Below, piece after piece: positions 10,400-34,525 of a DNA stretch of 37,047 nucleotides. Where the stretch lies: NCBI GenBank assembly GCA_001915065.1, contig MNDT01000069.1:1-37047 (forward strand), read 5' to 3'. Origin of the DNA: an archaeon 13_2_20CM_2_53_6. Its GTDB lineage: Archaea > Thermoproteota > Bathyarchaeia > 40CM-2-53-6. Below the pieces are notes generated by a model. That model did not search any database. It had not been told where the DNA came from and was given only the letters and a program-made list of their open reading frames with translations. The position numbers were made by a program, and so were the translations under genes. Position 1 is the first letter of the stretch. The number at the start of each line of letters is the position of its first letter.

Positions 10400-13117
10400 T
10401 CAGGCCACGGATCCTACGTTGGTCCCGGCGGTTTCCTGAGATTCTCGACGCTTCGTAATGAGGTATACTGCAAGAGTGACGATTCCTCCGGCTAGCAGAC
10501 CGATGGCTATTGCCGGGAGCATTGAGAATCCTGCCGTATCGGTTGGTTGACCTCCATAGGACGACGTTGCCGTTACGACGATGCTGGCTTGGCGAGTCGT
10601 GGTGCCGTTTGTTGCGGTAATGGTGATAGTGTAAGTCGAGCCCGGAGTTGCGTCCGCAGGCAGAGCAATGGTCAGTGTCGTGGTGGCCGCGGAGGTGACG
10701 TAGCTTAGAATCTCTACCTGTGTGTAGAGGCTGAAAACCGGTCCGTTGCCTGCGGTCTGGGCGTTGAGGCTGATAGTTCCGTTGAAGTTGTGGAGTCCGT
10801 TCAGGGTTATTATGGCGCTGGCTGAATGGCCGGTTTGTATGTTCAACTGGGTTGGGACGACGGTTACTGTAAAGTCGGGAAGACCTACGATTGGTGGGCC
10901 GACGACTAGGATTGTGATGATCGCCGTGTGTACTATTCCATTTCCAGTACCTGTCACATTCACAGTGTAGGTTCCGGGCTTTGTCGAACTTGGAACGGTT
11001 ATGCTGATTGTCGAGGGTATGGTTGCGTTCGGCGTGAGATGTACTCTCTGAGTCGTCCAGCTTAGGAGGAGACCTGAGTTGCCTGCTGAAGCAGACATAC
11101 TGATGTTGGCGTAGAAATTATCGATGCTGGTCAAGGCTACCTGGGAGGCATTCGAGGACCCCGGCTGGATGACTAAAGGACTCGGGCTGGAGTTGATGGT
11201 GTACCCAGCTGCTGGAGAGAGAACCGTTAAGGCTAGCGTTGCACTGTGGGAGTGACCAATAGAATGTACGTTTATTGTGAAGTTGAACTTTCCAAGGGTC
11301 GGAGGGAGGATGAGGATCCTGAAGATGACAGTGCCGGACGAGCCTGGGGCGAGAGTTACGATACTCGGGCTAAAGGACCCGCCGCCGTAGAACGCGCCAT
11401 AGATGCTCCATAACAGCTCGACGGAGCCGGCGAAAGTATCCGTGTTTGTAACCGTGACGTTGGCAGCGTTCACAGAGACGCCCTGCGGAAGATCAATGGA
11501 GGTAGGGAATACGGCGACCGTGAAGTCGGGGCCTGGAGGCACGGCGATGGTGAAGTTGGCTGAATGGGAGAGGGAGCCGCTTGTGGCCACGACCTGGAGG
11601 ATTCCACAGCAGCCAATGTTGATGGGGGGACCGAAGACCTTGAGCTGAATACTGGTGCTCCCATAGGCTGTCAGATCCGGGTTGCTCAGGCCGAGGAATG
11701 TGGTCTGGGTTCCGTTGATCCAGTAGAGATTGAGATTGACGGTCCCTACAAACTCGTTAACGCTCGTCAGTATGACGTGAGTTGCAACTGTTCCCACGGC
11801 GAGGTCGTAGGAGGCGAGTGACGGGTTGAGGTTGATGGTAAAGTCTGGCGGGCCGGGCAAAACTTGGAGGTAAATGTAGATGGGCTGTAACAAGAACCCT
11901 GTCCCGCTGACTCGTAGTGTATAGTAGCCTGCTGGGACGAGCTGTGTTGTGACAGTTATTGTGGTCGTATTTGTTCCGGCCTTGACAGTGATGGTGGAAG
12001 GACTGAGGCTCAACACTGGCCCGGGCATCAGAGAGACCACCTTGAGGGTGATAGTCCCGTTGAAACGACCGACGCTTGTTAGTGTGACAACGTCTGTCCC
12101 TGAGGAGTTTGTGGGAATGGCGATGTAGGATTGAGCCGGGTTAAGGCTGTAGCCTGGTCCCGTGACTGTGATATTGAGAACGGTAGAGCGCACCTGCATG
12201 CCCGCGCTCGCCGTTATGTTTACTCTATAGTTGGTGGCAGAGATGGACGTGGTGGTTGAGAAGTTCAACAGGACGTTGACGGTGCCACCAGCCGGTATCG
12301 CCCGGGTGGTCTGGTTTAGGGTTACGGTAGGCCCTGCAGGGACGACTGTTTTAGAAAGGTTGACGGTGCCCTGGAAACCGTTGATGCTCTGGAGGCTGAT
12401 CGTCGAGTTGATGCTAGACCCTTTCAGTATCCTCGCGTTGAAGGGGTTGGCGTAGATAGCGAAGTCAGGTTGGACGGGTGGGGACCAGAGACTCGTCTGC
12501 GTTATCAAGATGTTGAGCTGGGCGGTGACGTAGTAGATGTTCGAGTAGACCTCGGTGATGGTTAGATACAGGAGAATTCCCGTCTGCTGGTCGAAGTCTT
12601 CTTCGGACGATACGTATCCTCCTGAGAGGACTTGGAAGGAACTGATGACGTTGACCGTTCGGACAGCCCCGACAAAGACTTTCTCGACAGTTTTGGTGAT
12701 GGTGGGTGCTTGATTTGTCTCGTAGGCGGCCTCGGGAGCTACCAGTCCCTCAGCGATGACCCAGGGGATAAAGGGCGTATAGTTCCCGTACCCGCTCTGA
12801 GTGTTGTAGAGCAAATGGAAGGTGTTCATGGTCCCATTGTTGTAGATCATGGTTTGCCGTAGCGTGACGTTGTTCTGGTTGGCGTTGCTGACAGTGTTCT
12901 GGATGGAGGAGACGTTTAGGAAATTGGCAAAAGGGGATTGAGGGTTGAGATTTCCGACCCAGCTAGCACTAACTTGGCCATAACGGATTGTATCTCCCGC
13001 ATTGACACCAGGCTGGTAGTTGGCCTGAGCCCTCCCAGACGGAATATTAGTTGCGATAAGGCAGAGCAGAACTAGGACTAAGAGGAGGCGCGGCAACCCG
13101 CTTTCTAAGTCGATCAA
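10400..13117 (-). CDS. Large cell-surface protein with Ig-like repeats
   Basis: 905 aa, anchored outside the cell. It has a signal peptide near the N-terminus (LPRLLLVLVLLCLIATNIP), a distinct N-terminal domain to about residue 215, then about seven beta-sandwich repeats of 80-95 aa, and a C-terminal TM helix (~865-888) with short cytosolic tail (KRRESQE). Each repeat starts like DFTVxxxP and carries the pattern F-x-GT-(V/I)-x-L ... G-x-Y-x-(V/L)-x-(V/I), as in NEW3/APHP-type Ig-like domains. No enzyme motif is visible; an S-layer-associated, adhesive or stalk role is inference. The annotated start is TTG 13117; a TATA-like element at plus 13130-13138 would instead favour the in-frame TTG at 13096, giving a cleaner signal peptide. 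Confidence 0.85.
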   Translation of the reverse strand: MIDLESGLPRLLLVLVLLCLIATNIPSGRAQANYQPGVNAGDTIRYGQVSASWVGNLNPQSPFANFLNVSSIQNTVSNANQNNVTLRQTMIYNNGTMNTFHLLYNTQSGYGNYTPFIPWVIAEGLVAPEAAYETNQAPTITKTVEKVFVGAVRTVNVISSFQVLSGGYVSSEEDFDQQTGILLYLTITEVYSNIYYVTAQLNILITQTSLWSPPVQPDFAIYANPFNARILKGSSINSTISLQSINGFQGTVNLSKTVVPAGPTVTLNQTTRAIPAGGTVNVLLNFSTTTSISATNYRVNITASAGMQVRSTVLNITVTGPGYSLNPAQSYIAIPTNSSGTDVVTLTSVGRFNGTITLKVVSLMPGPVLSLSPSTITVKAGTNTTTITVTTQLVPAGYYTLRVSGTGFLLQPIYIYLQVLPGPPDFTINLNPSLASYDLAVGTVATHVILTSVNEFVGTVNLNLYWINGTQTTFLGLSNPDLTAYGSTSIQLKVFGPPINIGCCGILQVVATSGSLSHSANFTIAVPPGPDFTVAVFPTSIDLPQGVSVNAANVTVTNTDTFAGSVELLWSIYGAFYGGGSFSPSIVTLAPGSSGTVIFRILILPPTLGKFNFTINVHSIGHSHSATLALTVLSPAAGYTINSSPSPLVIQPGSSNASQVALTSIDNFYANISMSASAGNSGLLLSWTTQRVHLTPNATIPSTISITVPSSTKPGTYTVNVTGTGNGIVHTAIITILVVGPPIVGLPDFTVTVVPTQLNIQTGHSASAIITLNGLHNFNGTISLNAQTAGNGPVFSLYTQVEILSYVTSAATTTLTIALPADATPGSTYTITITATNGTTTRQASIVVTATSSYGGQPTDTAGFSMLPAIAIGLLAGGIVTLAVYLITKRRESQETAGTNVGSVA

Positions 13118-27081: not shown

Positions 27082-27204
27082 AAGACCGTGGTTTCAAGCT
27101 ACTCCGAGCATCTATTTTTGTTTAGCTGAACCGGCTCGCTTCTCGGAACAAGGTTAGCACGAAATGTAGCCGGGAGCGACATTCTCCCTTCGAACAGAAG
27201 GTGG

Positions 27205-27365
27205 CGCCGCCGAGAGGGTTCGAACCTCTAGCCGCGCCTTTCTAGATGGCGCTCTGACCAACGGGTTGCTGCAGTGGATTTCTTTAACAGCTTCAGCCTC
27301 AGCTTTCGGCTGAGCCCGCTGCTCTACCACTGAGCTCGCGCCCTCCATTTCTGGAGAACGGCGGC
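27205..27365 (-). tRNA. tRNA-Phe (GAA) interrupted by four putative introns
   Basis: Removing four segments gives a complete 72-nt cloverleaf. Acceptor GCCGCCG (27365-27359) pairs with CGGCGGC (27212-27206); U8 is 27358, A9 27336. D-arm GCTC-AGTGGTA-GAGC is 27335-27321. Anticodon stem GCGGG/CCCGT encloses loop CTGAAGA with anticodon GAA at 27294-27292. T-arm is AGAGG-TTCGAAC-CCTCT. G73 is followed by an encoded CCA (27204-27202). Introns: 27357-27337 (21 nt), 27314-27297 (18 nt, one-base ambiguity), 27290-27267 (24 nt, canonical 37/38) and 27251-27226 (26 nt, inside the T-stem, ambiguous within AGAG). Three contain hairpins. GCUG containing G34 can pair with CAGC at the end of the canonical intron. 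Acceptor, GTAGCTCAG start and loop match archaeal tRNA-Phe; G73 instead of A is odd. A second GCCGCCG at 27384-27378 is an alternative 5' end. Confidence 0.75.
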
Positions 27366-27406
27366 CCGACGGACGGCCGGCGGCATTCGCAACCGAGCCA
27401 AGTTCG

Positions 27407-27417
27407 TTTATTAAAAG
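27407..27417 (-). promoter_or_regulatory. TATA box of tRNA-Phe
   Basis: CTTTTAATAAA on the minus strand lies ~28 bp before 27384 and ~47 bp before 27365. It sits between the pilin gene stop and the tRNA. Confidence 0.5.
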
Positions 27418-28096: not shown

Positions 28097-28201
28097 GGGC
28101 CCGTAGCTCAGCCAGGTTTCCTGATCAGGACTGAGAGAGCGGCAGGCTCATAAAAGGTCTAAGACACCTGACGGTCCCCGGTTCGAATCCGGGCGGGCCC
28201 A
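28097..28201 (+). tRNA. tRNA-Met (CAU, elongator type) with two introns
   Basis: Acceptor GGGCCCG/CGGGCCC, TA, D-stem GCTC/GAGC, anticodon stem GCAGG/CCTGA with loop CTCATAA (anticodon CAT), variable CGGTC, T-arm CCCGG-TTCGAAT-CCGGG and A73, followed by an encoded CCA to 28204. The canonical intron is ~13 nt (AAAGGTCTAAGAC). The D-loop is ~17 nt too long and contains the palindrome TCCTGATCAGGA, consistent with a second intron. Without both, the RNA is 75 nt and close to archaeal elongator tRNA-Met (CUCAUAACC loop). ATTAAAAC (~28064-28071) can serve as TATA box. Confidence 0.9.
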
Positions 28202-28490: not shown

Positions 28491-30506
28491 ATGCGCGCTC
28501 TTGCCATCTTCCTTGTCACACTTTCCGCCATGATATTCTCGGCAGGACTCATCCAGCCCACCCGCGCTGTCAGCAATCTCTTCAGCCACGTTGTGATCAT
28601 CGCAATGGAAAACCAATACTACAGTGATGTGATAGGCAATCCCAGAGCACCATTTATCAATTCGCTCGCGTCGCTCGGTAGTACCACTTCCAACTATCAT
28701 AGTTACGGTCAGGGAATCAATAGCACTAAGTGCTCGGCGGGATGTTACCAGGCGTTTACTGCCGGTCAGGTAATAGGCGCAAATGGATGGTGTCGAGGAG
28801 CCAACAGTCCATGCACAACTGCCGCGAATATCGCCGGGCAAATGCAATCAGCAGGGCTTCAAACCGCTATGTTCTGCGAAGACGCATGTATACGTGGCGC
28901 AGACCACTTCCCGTGGATAGGTTACACAAACACCTGGAATAGGTGTGTCTATGATACGGCGAACTATGGGAAATTTGACTGTAACGGTCAGACCGGAACT
29001 TCAGGCAACCTTCTCTTCAACAGCCAAAGTTCCAATAGCGGCGTATTCAACAACGTTACTTCGAATGCTGGCAACACCGCATTGACAGATTACCTCAACG
29101 GATCCAATCCTGCGCAGTTTATCTGGTTCACGCCATCCGACGCCCACAATATGCACTGGCCCGATAGCAATGTTACGCAGGGTGACAAGTATCTCAAAAG
29201 TCTGCTTGTCGGCACCGGATCGGTATCCAACCCGTCGCCCGGCACGGTCCTCTCAACAAATCTGTTCAGACAGTCCAGTACGTTCCTCTATCTCTGGTGG
29301 GATGAATACGATCCGTCGCCCAATGTCGAGTACGGTTCTATGATCAAGGCCGGCTACGTCTCAACCGGCGGCTATACGGAATATCATTCGCTTCACACTA
29401 TAGAAGAGAACTGGGCACTGCCTTACCTGACGAGTGTAGTCGCAGGCGATACTTCTATGACCGATCTTTTCAACCCTAGCGTCCCGCTGACGGTCATCTT
29501 CACAGACACTCCATCAAGTCCAATCGTAAACCAGAGCGTAGCATTCGCCAGTAGTGTAAGTGGCGGTATGGCACCGTATAGTTATTCATGGAGTTTCGGC
29601 GATGGTGAAACATCGGCGGCCGCCAATCCGACCCACACATACACATCGAACGGCACAAAGAATGTCCGGCTAATGATTACAGATGGCACAAGCCATCAGG
29701 CGAACCAGACTCAAATCATCAATGTGGCTCCTCCGGCGGACTTCACCCTTAGCGCAACGCCTATGCAGTCTGTTGACGCTGGGGCAGCCGCAAATTACAC
29801 CGTTACCTTGACTCCGGTGAACGGTTACACTGGAATCGTCAACTTGACAGTATCATCATCTCCAGTGGGACCTATGTGCTTCTTCACACCATCTTCACTA
29901 TCGCTGGCTCTTTCAAGAAATTCCATCATGTTATGTAGAGGCTCAGGAGGCCAATACAACATCACCATCGCAGCGACAAGCGGCTCCTTGACCCATTCCA
30001 TGTCTGTCACCTTGACTGTACGTGATTTCCGCATAACTGCAAGCCTCCTGTCGCTGACACTCTTACCAGGCGAGACTCGGAATACGAACATAACGCTGAC
30101 CAGCATTCAAGGACTGTCTGGAAACCTAACCGTTTCTTCAAGCTCATTTCCCGAAGGACTCGGGCTAGACCCTGCCTCTAAGATTATCAACCTAATGACA
30201 GGCGGTATCGCCTTCCTCAGCCTTGCCATCTTCTCGACGGGTTCAACAGCTCCGGGAAATTACAACGTGAACGTCACCGCTACATCGGGCACAGTTTCGC
30301 ACTTCGTCTTCGTTTCAATAACCGTAACTGACCCCAGCGTCGGTGGCACGACTATAGCAGTAGACAAGCTACGTCTATTGCTGCCCTACTTAACTCTACT
30401 AACACCAATAACAGCCTTCATCGGCCTTCTCGTAGGATTTGCCAGGAAGAAGGAGGCAACCAGGCAACAGCAAGAGAATACATGGTCGGAGCAAGCCTGT
30501 CAGTGA
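28491..30506 (+). CDS. Secreted phosphoesterase-family protein with PKD and Ig-like domains
   Basis: 671 aa. Signal peptide ~1-26; then a phosphoesterase (acid phosphatase/phospholipase C type, PF04185-like) domain to ~325 with the hallmark HVVIIAMENQYYSDV, APFINSLAS, FIWFTPSDAHNMHWPD, YLWWDEYDPSP and YHSLHTIEENWALPYL; a PKD domain at ~330-415 (YSWSFGDGETSAAANPTHTY); two Ig-like repeats of the kind found in the 905-aa protein; and a C-terminal TM helix (~640-658) with cytosolic tail. It would hydrolyse phosphate esters outside the cell, perhaps for phosphate acquisition. It lies directly after tRNA-Met in the putatively inserted region. Confidence 0.9.
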   Translation: MRALAIFLVTLSAMIFSAGLIQPTRAVSNLFSHVVIIAMENQYYSDVIGNPRAPFINSLASLGSTTSNYHSYGQGINSTKCSAGCYQAFTAGQVIGANGWCRGANSPCTTAANIAGQMQSAGLQTAMFCEDACIRGADHFPWIGYTNTWNRCVYDTANYGKFDCNGQTGTSGNLLFNSQSSNSGVFNNVTSNAGNTALTDYLNGSNPAQFIWFTPSDAHNMHWPDSNVTQGDKYLKSLLVGTGSVSNPSPGTVLSTNLFRQSSTFLYLWWDEYDPSPNVEYGSMIKAGYVSTGGYTEYHSLHTIEENWALPYLTSVVAGDTSMTDLFNPSVPLTVIFTDTPSSPIVNQSVAFASSVSGGMAPYSYSWSFGDGETSAAANPTHTYTSNGTKNVRLMITDGTSHQANQTQIINVAPPADFTLSATPMQSVDAGAAANYTVTLTPVNGYTGIVNLTVSSSPVGPMCFFTPSSLSLALSRNSIMLCRGSGGQYNITIAATSGSLTHSMSVTLTVRDFRITASLLSLTLLPGETRNTNITLTSIQGLSGNLTVSSSSFPEGLGLDPASKIINLMTGGIAFLSLAIFSTGSTAPGNYNVNVTATSGTVSHFVFVSITVTDPSVGGTTIAVDKLRLLLPYLTLLTPITAFIGLLVGFARKKEATRQQQENTWSEQACQ

Positions 30507-32317: not shown

Positions 32318-34525
32318 GTGAGGGTCATATACCTAATCGGCTTGATGATTCTTGGTCTCTCTCCATTTGCGCCTTCTGTTGTCAGGGCGACTGATTTCTC
32401 AGTGTCGTCGGTGCACGCAGCAGGATTCTATACCGGGGCAGATGCTGACCTTCGAAACTGGGGTCGGATGGCCTCCGAAACCAAGCTGAGCCAGGAAGCG
32501 GCTTACCAGAGCGGACCGACGATCTATGGTCCAAACAGACCCAACATTTACGGCGATGTGATGGCTCGAGACAATAATGATGCTTCGGGGTTCGCCTGGT
32601 TGAAGACCGTCAGGCAAACCGTGACGATCACGGATAGTCAAGGTCAGGCCCTAGATTCGCAACGCTTCGGAAATCTCGGGTACATGGAAAGCCCCCAGGC
32701 CACCAATGAGATTGACTGGCTGTCGGTTGGCACAGAAGTGTACAATTTCCTCGGCCAATTTGCGGACCTACCCTCGGTACCAGACCTGACAAAATTCAAG
32801 ACGACAACTCCTAGTGGAATTTTTCCTGGGTCAAACTCTATCTCGGCACAATACAACGACCCAAGCGACAATAGCGGTCCCACTGCCAAGGCAGTAAACT
32901 TCCGGTACCAACCAGACTTTACTCATCCTGACATTTGGACGGTTAGCATATCAAACCATGCCGAGCAATGGTATTGCAACCAATCATTCTGCGCCTCAAC
33001 CGCCCAATGGTCTTATGGCGGAGACACGAGCTACTCGTTTCCCTACGTTTACGAGAGCGATGCCAACAGTGGAAATGATGCAAGCAACGTCATTGCTGGT
33101 GCCTTCGGGGTAGGATTTGCAAGTTACAATGGAATACTTCAAGGGGCAGACGATCAGGACTGGTATCAATTTCAGGCAAACTCGGGACAAGCCGTCACAA
33201 TAAGCATGACCCCACCAACGGGCGCAAACTTCGACATGAAACTATACGATCCCAGCGGCAACTATTTCTCGGGATCCTTCAACGCGCAGGGTCAACCGGA
33301 GTCCATAAGCTTCAACGCTCCCGTTTCAGGTCTATGGAGGCTGCAAGTGTATCTTGTTAGCGGCTTCGGAACCTACACCTTTTCCGTCAACAACCCGGAC
33401 TTCACAATTCAGGCGAATCCGACCACTCTGAGCCTTCCAGCCGGTGTAATGGGCACCTCAACGATCACCGTCACCAGTATGAGTGGCTTTAGCGGCAGCG
33501 TATCCTTGTCGGTGTCCCCGCCACCCCCCACAGTCGGCTACGGCGGTCCCGCCTTCAGCGTGACGTTGCTCCCTGGCACCCAGGCCAGCACCACACTTTA
33601 CGTCTATACCGACTATACAACACCACAACAGACTTTTACCGCAACGGTGACAGCAACGTCAGGCTCACTGTCTCACCAGGCAAACGTGGTCGTGACGGTG
33701 GGACCTCATCCACCCCCACCGAGTTACGTTCCCCCGGCTGTTTTCAACGGGGTGGGTAGCCAGATAACGGTCTGTGTTGGGTCTTCGGTTTCAGTGGGAA
33801 TCACGCTATCAGCGAGCACTGGCCTCCAAGGTTCTGTTTCAGTGGAAGTCCGTAAAGACATAGTGGTCTACTCCGACCAGACACTGACGACTCTCTCAAA
33901 GACCGTCATTCTTAGCTCGGGCAACAACGCCATTAACATGGGGTCTTTCCAGGCCAACGACCTGACTGGAGGCAACTGGGGTGACGTGAGACAGTACTTC
34001 ATCAAAGTGTCCTGGGCGGGGCAGCTCATCTACGACCCTACAGATCCTAATTCAAGAGAGTGGGTCCAAACAACATACTGCTCCAGCGGTGGTGGCGGAG
34101 GCAGTGTCCCGCAAGGGACGCTGATTACCATGGCCAACGGGAACAACGTGCCTGTCCAGAATCTCAGGGTCGGGGACGAGATGCTTGGCTATGATACAAC
34201 GCTCAGCCGCTTCACCGTTTCCAAGGTAACTTCAATAGCGATAGTAAGCACAAGCAACATGTTGATTATCAATACAGAGTCGGGAACCCCCTTCAGGGCG
34301 GACGCGAATCCTCACCAGACATTGTGGGTTAGGAGAACAGACGGAAGTGTCCTCTGGTTGCCCGTCACGAAACTCCTTCCTGGGGACTCTCTCTTTACCC
34401 CAAATGGATGGTCTAAAGTCACAAGAGTAGAGTTTGCTCCGGCAGGAACACACGTGATGTTCGACATCGTTGCCACAGAACCATACTTCGCCAGCGGCTA
34501 CCTAGACCCAATATACAAGATGTGA
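32318..34525 (+). CDS. Secreted protein with PPC, Ig-like and C-terminal Hint domain
   Basis: 735 aa from GTG 32318. Signal peptide ~1-25 (RVIYLIGLMILGLSPFAPSV); a novel N-terminal domain to ~265; a PPC-like domain ~275-365 (GADDQDWYQFQANSGQAVTI, MKLYDPSGN); one or two Ig-like repeats (~370-590); a Gly-rich linker; and a Hint domain from Ser596 to the end. The Hint part shows SVPQGTLITMANG, VQNLRVGDEMLGYD, the block B histidine in ADANPHQTLWV (His666), KLLPGDSLFTPNGWSKV and the terminal YFASGYL. The usual nucleophilic Cys is Ser, and no C-terminal His-Asn is present, so it is hedgehog/BIL-like rather than an intein. It may cleave or attach the protein at the cell surface. Confidence 0.88.
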   Translation: MRVIYLIGLMILGLSPFAPSVVRATDFSVSSVHAAGFYTGADADLRNWGRMASETKLSQEAAYQSGPTIYGPNRPNIYGDVMARDNNDASGFAWLKTVRQTVTITDSQGQALDSQRFGNLGYMESPQATNEIDWLSVGTEVYNFLGQFADLPSVPDLTKFKTTTPSGIFPGSNSISAQYNDPSDNSGPTAKAVNFRYQPDFTHPDIWTVSISNHAEQWYCNQSFCASTAQWSYGGDTSYSFPYVYESDANSGNDASNVIAGAFGVGFASYNGILQGADDQDWYQFQANSGQAVTISMTPPTGANFDMKLYDPSGNYFSGSFNAQGQPESISFNAPVSGLWRLQVYLVSGFGTYTFSVNNPDFTIQANPTTLSLPAGVMGTSTITVTSMSGFSGSVSLSVSPPPPTVGYGGPAFSVTLLPGTQASTTLYVYTDYTTPQQTFTATVTATSGSLSHQANVVVTVGPHPPPPSYVPPAVFNGVGSQITVCVGSSVSVGITLSASTGLQGSVSVEVRKDIVVYSDQTLTTLSKTVILSSGNNAINMGSFQANDLTGGNWGDVRQYFIKVSWAGQLIYDPTDPNSREWVQTTYCSSGGGGGSVPQGTLITMANGNNVPVQNLRVGDEMLGYDTTLSRFTVSKVTSIAIVSTSNMLIINTESGTPFRADANPHQTLWVRRTDGSVLWLPVTKLLPGDSLFTPNGWSKVTRVEFAPAGTHVMFDIVATEPYFASGYLDPIYKM

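Follow-up and report, generated by a model that had tools for sequence, protein, structure and literature searches.

A tRNA-Asn(GUU) gene with four bulge-helix-bulge introns in a Bathyarchaeota-type archaeon, and a candidate provisional acceptor strand encoded in its leader

The locus that we have analysed raises two questions: which tRNA is encoded by a gene that is whole only after four segments have been taken out of it, and why a second copy of its acceptor 5' strand is located in the leader. The gene lies in a stretch of 37,047 nucleotides (hereafter, the window), which is contig C36 of a 1.79-Mb draft genome that is 80% complete; a neighbouring protein in the window leads to the named relative Candidatus Bathyarchaeota archaeon BA_19. 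Judging from the sequences, we consider it likely that a working tRNA-Asn(GUU) gene of a Bathyarchaeota-type archaeon is located here, with four introns of the bulge-helix-bulge (BHB) type and with the leader copy as a provisional acceptor strand.

The gene is located on the minus strand, at positions 27202-27365 of the window, with G1 at 27365, C72 at 27206 and G73CCA at 27205-27202; 89 nt in total have to be removed from it, and the resulting exons and introns are listed in Table 1. All exons occur in order within 160 nt, i.e. the gene is neither split nor permuted. The initial annotation had described a tRNA gene with four introns at 27205-27384: the tRNA is there, on the minus strand, and the four introns are borne out, as are the sites 8/9 and 37/38 and the one in the T stem, whereas the end at 27384 lies 19 nt too far and coincides with the start of the leader element. 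The lengths that it gave for the first and the last segment (21 and 26 nt) also stand, while the two between them, given as 18 and 24 nt, are really 24 nt (30/31) and 18 nt (37/38). Its expectation that standard tools might miss the gene agrees with our scans: neither ARAGORN nor Rfam at the gathering score reports a tRNA for the window, the Rfam negative being a weak one, as a whole-genome search with the same family scores the neighbouring tRNA-Met at 45.5 bits; in that search, part of the tRNA-Asn gene reaches 22.9 bits, below the cut-off of 29. The neighbouring gene, located at 28097-28201 on the plus strand, is an elongator-type tRNA-Met(CAU) with two introns, at 20b/21 (17 nt) and 37/38 (13 nt); it is missed by ARAGORN and the Rfam scan of the window, and found by the whole-genome Rfam search. 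Around the tRNA genes, large, apparently secreted, repeat-rich proteins are encoded at 28491-30506, 32318-34525 and 10400-13117, as judged by eye from the translations.

Table 1. Elements of the tRNA-Asn(GUU) locus, in the direction of transcription (positions of the window).
Feature	Position	Strand	Basis
TATA-like box TTTTAATAAA of the putative tRNA promoter	27407-27416	-	sequence
Leader element GCCGCCG, an extra copy of acceptor 5' strand 1-7, predicted to pair with 66-72	27378-27384	-	sequence, folding
Exon 1, positions 1-8, GCCGCCGU	27358-27365	-	intron parse
Intron 1, 21 nt, 8/9, BHB	27337-27357	-	parse; relatives without the intron
Exon 2, positions 9-30	27316-27336	-	intron parse
Intron 2, 24 nt, 30/31, BHB, last six bases GCUGAA	27292-27315	-	parse
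Exon 3, positions 31-37, GCUGUUA, anticodon GUU	27285-27291	-	parse, intronless genes
Intron 3, 18 nt, 37/38 (canonical site), BHB	27267-27284	-	parse
Exon 4, positions 38-50	27254-27266	-	intron parse
Intron 4, 26 nt, 50/51 in the T stem, BHB	27228-27253	-	parse; family comparison
Exon 5, positions 51-72	27206-27227	-	intron parse
G73 and encoded CCA	27202-27205	-	sequence; GCCA next in 18/18 family loci

The exact 3' end of the gene has been found at 18 loci, which are spread over 17 of the 21 family genomes. Four introns are present at seven of the 18 loci (genomes G000, G004, G005, G009, G013, G016 and G019), and intron 4 is exactly missing at 11; G005 has one locus with and one without intron 4, perhaps as a result of mixed bins. 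The G004 locus (L034), which has an assembly gap (N) inside intron 1, is counted among the seven and is omitted from the analysis of BHB pairs in 66 distinct Asn genes. These 66 genes form a ladder of intron content: 16 have none, four have the 30/31 intron, one has 30/31 and 37/38, 15 have 8/9 and 30/31, 21 have 8/9, 30/31 and 37/38, three have 8/9 and 30/31 with a further 3' site, and six have four introns. Outside the family, the number of introns in tRNA-Asn genes ranges from 0 to 3, with most of the sites being shared; intron 1 is absent from the relatives L126-L128, L130 and L131 and from the intronless genes. Excision of the four segments restores a canonical tRNA, and relatives lack the introns exactly.

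The search for BHB motifs that was suggested with the initial annotation has, by means of our parser, located the motif (a central helix of 4 bp and two bulges of 3 nt) at each of the four introns. For intron 1, central-helix pairs 1-4 are formed in 45, 45, 34 and 45 of 45 Asn genes, with the third pair failing in 11 genes, all of them outside the family, and being intact in the window gene; for intron 2, all four pairs are formed in 50/50 genes; for intron 3, the counts are 28, 24, 28 and 28 of 28; for intron 4, all four pairs are formed in 6/6, these being six genes only, with less variation. At most inner-helix pairs of introns 1-3, several pair types occur across the 66 genes: in intron 2, inner pairs 1-5 are formed in 50/50, 50/50, 49/50, 44/50 and 44/48 genes, with two to five pair types each. 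The gene structure is not due to chance, because the same exons occur with variable introns at 18 loci and the BHB pairs are kept despite base changes. The motifs also suggest an order of removal: since intron 2 splits the outer helix of intron 3, which is complete only once intron 2 has been removed (its second outer pair is formed before splicing in only 5 of 28 genes), intron 2 would have to leave before intron 3.

The anticodon loop CUGUUAA, the discriminator base G73, which is usual for tRNA-Asn, and the orthology to Asn genes identify the product as tRNA-Asn(GUU). A class-wide search with the anticodon masked as N has given matches in 94 of 151 genomes, from which 30 loci were fetched; the intronless genes printed from these loci have CTGTTAA and G73 in 20/20 cases, with CCA next in 19/20. 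The Phe genes of the class and of the family have A73 and other acceptor stems: in the class, L129 is a true tRNA-Phe, with GAA, A73 and the acceptor strand GCCGCGG, and the family genes have A73 and GCCGAGG. Whether a separate tRNA-Phe gene exists had been put forward as a check; one is present in 12 of the 21 family genomes, with four introns in four of them and three in eight, and no such gene was found in the 80%-complete genome of the window.

Three other accounts of the gene have to be weighed at this point. The initial annotation had read it as tRNA-Phe(GAA) with four introns, those of 18 and 24 nt flanking GCUGAAG; a coherent cloverleaf can be drawn in this way, and GAA occurs in 23 of the 28 distinct Asn genes that have both the 30/31 and the 37/38 intron. 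GAA is, however, the 3' end of intron 2, where GCUGAA forms the 3' half of the BHB motif and GCUG pairs with exon positions 25-28; the Phe reading breaks the fourth central-helix pair of intron 3 in 28/28 genes, while the Asn reading keeps it in 28/28, GAA is missing in five of the 28, base 73 is G and not A, the masked search brings back Asn orthologs and the real Phe genes sit elsewhere, all of which makes a Phe identity next to impossible. It is scarcely less improbable that one precursor is spliced alternatively into two tRNAs, mostly Asn and sometimes Phe: the two readings do have equal total intron length and the genome is without a detected Phe gene, but this genome is just 80% complete, other family members have their separate Phe gene and the GAA anticodon is impossible in the same five genes. 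Both the Phe identity and the dual use have been rejected on the BHB pairing and on the GAA counts across Asn genes. As for a decayed pseudogene, which the silence of ARAGORN and of Rfam at its gathering score might suggest, we find it hardly credible, given that the mature sequences of the 18 family loci differ by one T-stem base pair only (with L048 and L034 parsed using both inner- and outer-helix scoring) and that the genome has no other credible tRNA-Asn. The latter holds for the decoded part of 29 Rfam candidates and 32 matches to a T-arm pattern, several of which stayed undecoded; one of the tRNAs of this genome (L005) gives a weak GTT parse without U33. The exon/intron borders, the Asn identity, the conservation of the gene and the absence of each intron in some relatives are established at the level of sequence comparison.

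Four introns per gene are not confined to tRNA-Asn: four BHB-supported introns occur in 11 of 177 distinct decoded genes with a score above 62 (seven Asn, three Phe and one Asp), this set being a sample of chosen orthologs and no census, with a fourth four-intron Phe gene added afterwards. The four-intron tRNA-Phe genes (L326, L320, L321 and L323, from G003, G006, G014 and G015) have their introns at 8/9, 18/19, 37/38 and 46/47 and carry TAAAGTCTTAT upstream; in eight further species, the Phe gene has three introns and a different promoter, AAAGCTTAATTC, and keeps the leader copy without the 8/9 intron. The tRNA-Asp gene (L315, G040:C3:62300-62800) has one intron in each acceptor strand, at 4/5 and 69/70, among its four. 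The genome of the window is itself rich in introns: apart from the Asn gene, 26 distinct tRNA genes have been decoded, and the parser finds one or more BHB-supported introns in 23 of these, a count in which the 45/46 "introns" of Ser and Leu genes, probably variable arms, are included; several genes (Asp, Cys, Lys, Trp, Pro) have three introns, and the unusual sites include 14/15, 15/16, 17/18 and 59/60. Parser scores are on our own scale and the genomes are drafts; L009-L030 are unparsed, 24 of the other 259 loci gave no decoding above a score of 55, L144 has a run of N and several Leu genes are undecoded.

Two genes for subunits of a tRNA splicing endonuclease are present in the same genome. 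The first subunit matches the structures 3p1z (1.6e-43) and 3ajv (4e-42) and also resembles 2cv8 and 2zyz, these four presumably coming from Aeropyrum, Sulfolobus and Pyrobaculum; in the alignment, it has the stretches DFAVY, GIDHAPF and VRK, which we take to hold the catalytic Tyr, His and Lys. The second subunit matches 5x89 (1.3e-19) and 1a79 (4.3e-12), and the three stretches were not seen in its alignment. The two genes fit an enzyme of the (alpha-beta)2 type, which would cut the four BHB motifs, with the exons being ligated thereafter; in the available part of PMC4090602, endonucleases of this type are linked with unusual introns.

We now turn to the leader, where the second GCCGCCG starts 19 nt before G1, probably close to where the leader begins. 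The copy is present at 18/18 family Asn loci and in 16/16 other printed Asn genes with an 8/9 intron (once as GCCGTCG), while 12 printed Asn genes without this intron have no copy, four of them with a leader of only 20-24 nt; among the longer leaders of Asn genes without the 8/9 intron, two matches occur (L222 and L224). In other isotypes, the leader repeats the strand of the gene at hand: GCCGGGG in tRNA-Cys with an 8/9 intron (no exact copy in eight printed Cys genes without it), GCCGAGG in tRNA-Phe, GCCCAGG in tRNA-Asp with a 4/5 intron, where the gene itself reads GCCC-intron-AGG and the leader thus equals the spliced strand (GCTCAGG in G018), and GCGGTCG in the one tRNA-Gly gene with a 3/4 intron, which equals the spliced strand with one wobble change. 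A promoter or initiation motif has been rejected, as the element varies by gene and matches the acceptor strand of its own gene.

For a strict comparison, we have required that a segment of the leader can pair with the whole of 66-72 (or of 67-75) with at most two G.U pairs, in loci with a score of at least 59, a leader of at least 30 nt and no N (88 loci with an intron at 3/4, 4/5 or 8/9 and 125 without); an earlier leader comparison had started from 260 decoded genes, reduced to 217 distinct ones, of which nine were dropped for a short leader or a low score. The element is found at 85 of the 88 loci with an early intron, against 3.5 expected from shuffled leaders, and at 16 of the 125 without, against 1.7 expected; both counts refer to related sequences and not to independent events. 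By isotype, it is present in 46/47 Asn, 17/17 Cys, 17/18 Asp, 4/4 Phe, 1/1 Gly and 0/1 Ser loci with an early intron. The three exceptions are L070, L304 and L315; the main one is L070 (G000:C10), a tRNA-Ser(UGA) of the genome of the window that has a fully paired 8/9 BHB intron and no element, while the leader of the Asp gene L315 has no full copy. Of the 16 matches without an early intron, eight are Phe loci with a perfect element whose relatives have the 8/9 intron, and one is the Asn gene L222 (G128:C41), whose paralog L298 (G128:C25) has both intron and element, perhaps a case of recent intron loss within one genome; the remaining seven (L066, L204, L207, L219, L224, L248 and L258, three of them Asp genes) may be chance matches or relics. 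Since the element occurs in genes without an early intron, intron and element are separable.

Among the strict matches, the changes at element positions 1-6 are from C to U, which keeps a G.U pair (GCCGTCG, GCCGCTG and GCCGTTG in Asn, GCTCAGG in Asp, GCGGTCG in Gly); the match definition favours such changes, yet only three early-intron loci fail it. From the centre of the TATA-like box to the element, the median distance is 29 nt in 58 scorable genes (29 nt in 46 Asn and 38 nt in 10 Cys genes, with one Asp and one Gly gene only), a regularity that has been shown for Asn genes only and with the leader starts deduced from TATA-like boxes.

After the rule had been seen, 398 genomes of the phylum were searched for GCCGCCGT, followed by a gap of 14-44 and AGCTCAG. 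Of the 81 matches that were listed, nine are in the order already known. From the others, 13 were picked by eye by their would-be intron end (GGCG or GACG six bases before the next exon), seven more were parsed and are no tRNA genes (scores 27-41), and the remainder were judged by eye from the printed matches. Each of the 13 picked genes can be parsed as tRNA-Asn with an 8/9 intron; they come from six families that had not previously been seen with this intron, two of these being outside the class. The leader element is present in all 13; 12 pass the strict test, and L304 has a shifted duplex of 8 bp. In several of the new lineages, the complementarity extends to positions 73, 74 and 75 (GGCGCCGCCG with CGGCGGCGCC).

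The geometry of the early introns suggests what such a copy could do. In the BHB motif of an 8/9 intron, tRNA nucleotides 3-6 are located in the central helix and nucleotides 1-2 in the outer helix, and therefore the true 5' strand is not available for the acceptor stem as long as this motif exists; the motif of a 4/5 intron uses the end of the leader and nucleotides 1-2. The genes in question thus combine a leader segment that is complementary to their own 66-72 with an acceptor strand that is engaged by a 5'-proximal BHB. With mixed support from the folding models described below, we lean towards a new class of cis-acting tRNA-gene element, a leader-encoded provisional acceptor strand that would stand in during BHB splicing at 3/4, 4/5 and 8/9. 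By pairing with 66-72 and, in other lineages, with 73-75 as well, the leader copy would create a provisional acceptor stem, which would free the true strand for splicing, keep the precursor tRNA-like and may permit 3'-end processing ahead of splicing; after splicing, the true strand would replace the copy, and RNase P would remove the leader. According to the available part of PMC3695527, RNA-seq of Methanopyrus places 3' and 5' end processing before intron removal; it is our speculation that an intron that blocks the acceptor stem would upset such an order, and that a provisional stem could restore at least the 3' processing.

We have folded 79 precursors in which only the early intron is left, all of them with a found element, so that high pairing is partly due to selection: the element pairs with 66-72 with a mean probability of 0.97 and the true strand with 0.00, while with shuffled leaders the true strand takes 0.45. 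In these free folds, the BHB helix has a mean probability of 0.11 with native leaders, 0.03 with shuffled leaders and 0.00 in the window gene. The cost of forcing the motif has been computed for 53 of the 79 genes, the other 26 (16 from Cys, 10 from Asn) being left out for their imperfect central helix: in Asn genes, it is 3.53 kcal/mol with native against 6.72 kcal/mol with shuffled leaders (lower in 30/31), and in Phe genes 0.93 against 3.07 kcal/mol (lower in 4/4), whereas in Asp genes the element gives no gain (cheaper in 4/17); overall, forcing is cheaper in 39/53. In spliced RNA that still has its leader, the element remains preferred (0.88, against 0.10 for the true strand), and therefore RNase P or some other factor would have to drive the final exchange.

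The leader copy might instead be a neutral, functionless relic of the duplication that gave rise to the 5'-proximal intron; the copies are short and near each other, and they persist without the 8/9 intron in the eight Phe loci and in L222. We consider this unlikely, seeing that the linkers and introns of different families are strongly diverged while the 7-mer is kept or shows C-to-U changes compatible with pairing (a pattern that the match rule favours), that the distance to the TATA-like box is regular in Asn genes, and that several lineages outside the family extend the pairing to G73, C74 and C75, which a plain duplication of 1-7 would not do. Much more remote is the idea that the leader copy is the mature 5' strand, with the linker and the second copy being removed: it would give an identical mature sequence, but U8 is located between the second copy and the 8/9 intron in Asn, Cys and Phe genes and would become an exon of one base, and inspection by hand of the Asn and Asp sequences of this genome shows no BHB motif at 7/8. 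The upstream GCCGCCG has been rejected as the true 5' end on these two grounds. The reading of the copy as a provisional acceptor strand is the one that we carry into the comparison with known systems.

The maximum for an archaeal tRNA gene is given as three introns in the available parts of PMC8450103 (2021), PMC4033280, PMC3293823 and PMC3218864, and the same limit that was quoted in the initial annotation agrees with the first of these. Our literature search, which covered few subscription papers, found no tRNA gene with four or more introns, nothing on point for tRNA introns in Bathyarchaeota and no leader pairing with the acceptor strand of this kind, nor does anything in the available parts of PMC12397907 and PMC7714728 match; within the literature searched, four introns per tRNA gene appear to be new. 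The nearest parallel in the number of introns is found in the Thermoproteales (Pyrobaculum, Thermofilum), whose genes can likewise be interrupted by several BHB introns, in canonical as well as non-canonical positions; the available text of PMC4090602 lists 30/31 as one of the archaeal intron sites and reports an endonuclease of the alpha2-beta2 type for Crenarchaeota. Their maximum is three per gene (PMC8450103 and PMC4033280, as far as available), in contrast to four in Asn, Phe and Asp here, and a leader copy, present in the genes described here, is unmentioned in the available parts of PMC8450103, PMC4033280 and PMC4090602.

In split tRNAs (Nanoarchaeum, Aeropyrum, Staphylothermus), leader pairing joins the parts for BHB splicing (PMC3218864 and PMC4033280, available parts), but there the leaders of two transcripts pair, whereas here one leader would pair with the acceptor 3' strand of its own transcript and, unlike split-tRNA leaders, contains a second copy of the acceptor 5' strand. 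Permuted tRNA genes (Thermofilum, red and green algae) likewise give rise to an unusual precursor, with end maturation following splicing (PMC3978253 and PMC3218864, available parts). In these, the 3' half is located upstream of the 5' half, whereas the gene order here is linear. The alga with three-intron genes for tRNA-eMet and tRNA-Cys is a nucleomorph case. The introns of these two genes are located in several arms (PMC4090602, available part), as are the three introns of tRNA-Ile(UAU) of Cyanidioschyzon merolae (PMC9602550, available part); the algal cases are eukaryotic with three introns, whereas the gene here is archaeal with four.

The published limit of three introns is exceeded in at least three isotypes, and the natural ladder from zero to four introns in one gene offers useful material for studying how introns are gained and lost. 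A gene finder that allows few introns can overlook genes of this kind, and tRNA counts in these genomes may then look falsely poor. The leader element makes end processing and the formation of the splice motif testable in pre-tRNAs with an intron in the acceptor stem; if our reading of it is true, it would represent a new step of tRNA maturation, a temporary acceptor stem, which would explain the tolerance of introns in or next to the acceptor stem and would have helped the lineage to reach up to four introns per gene.
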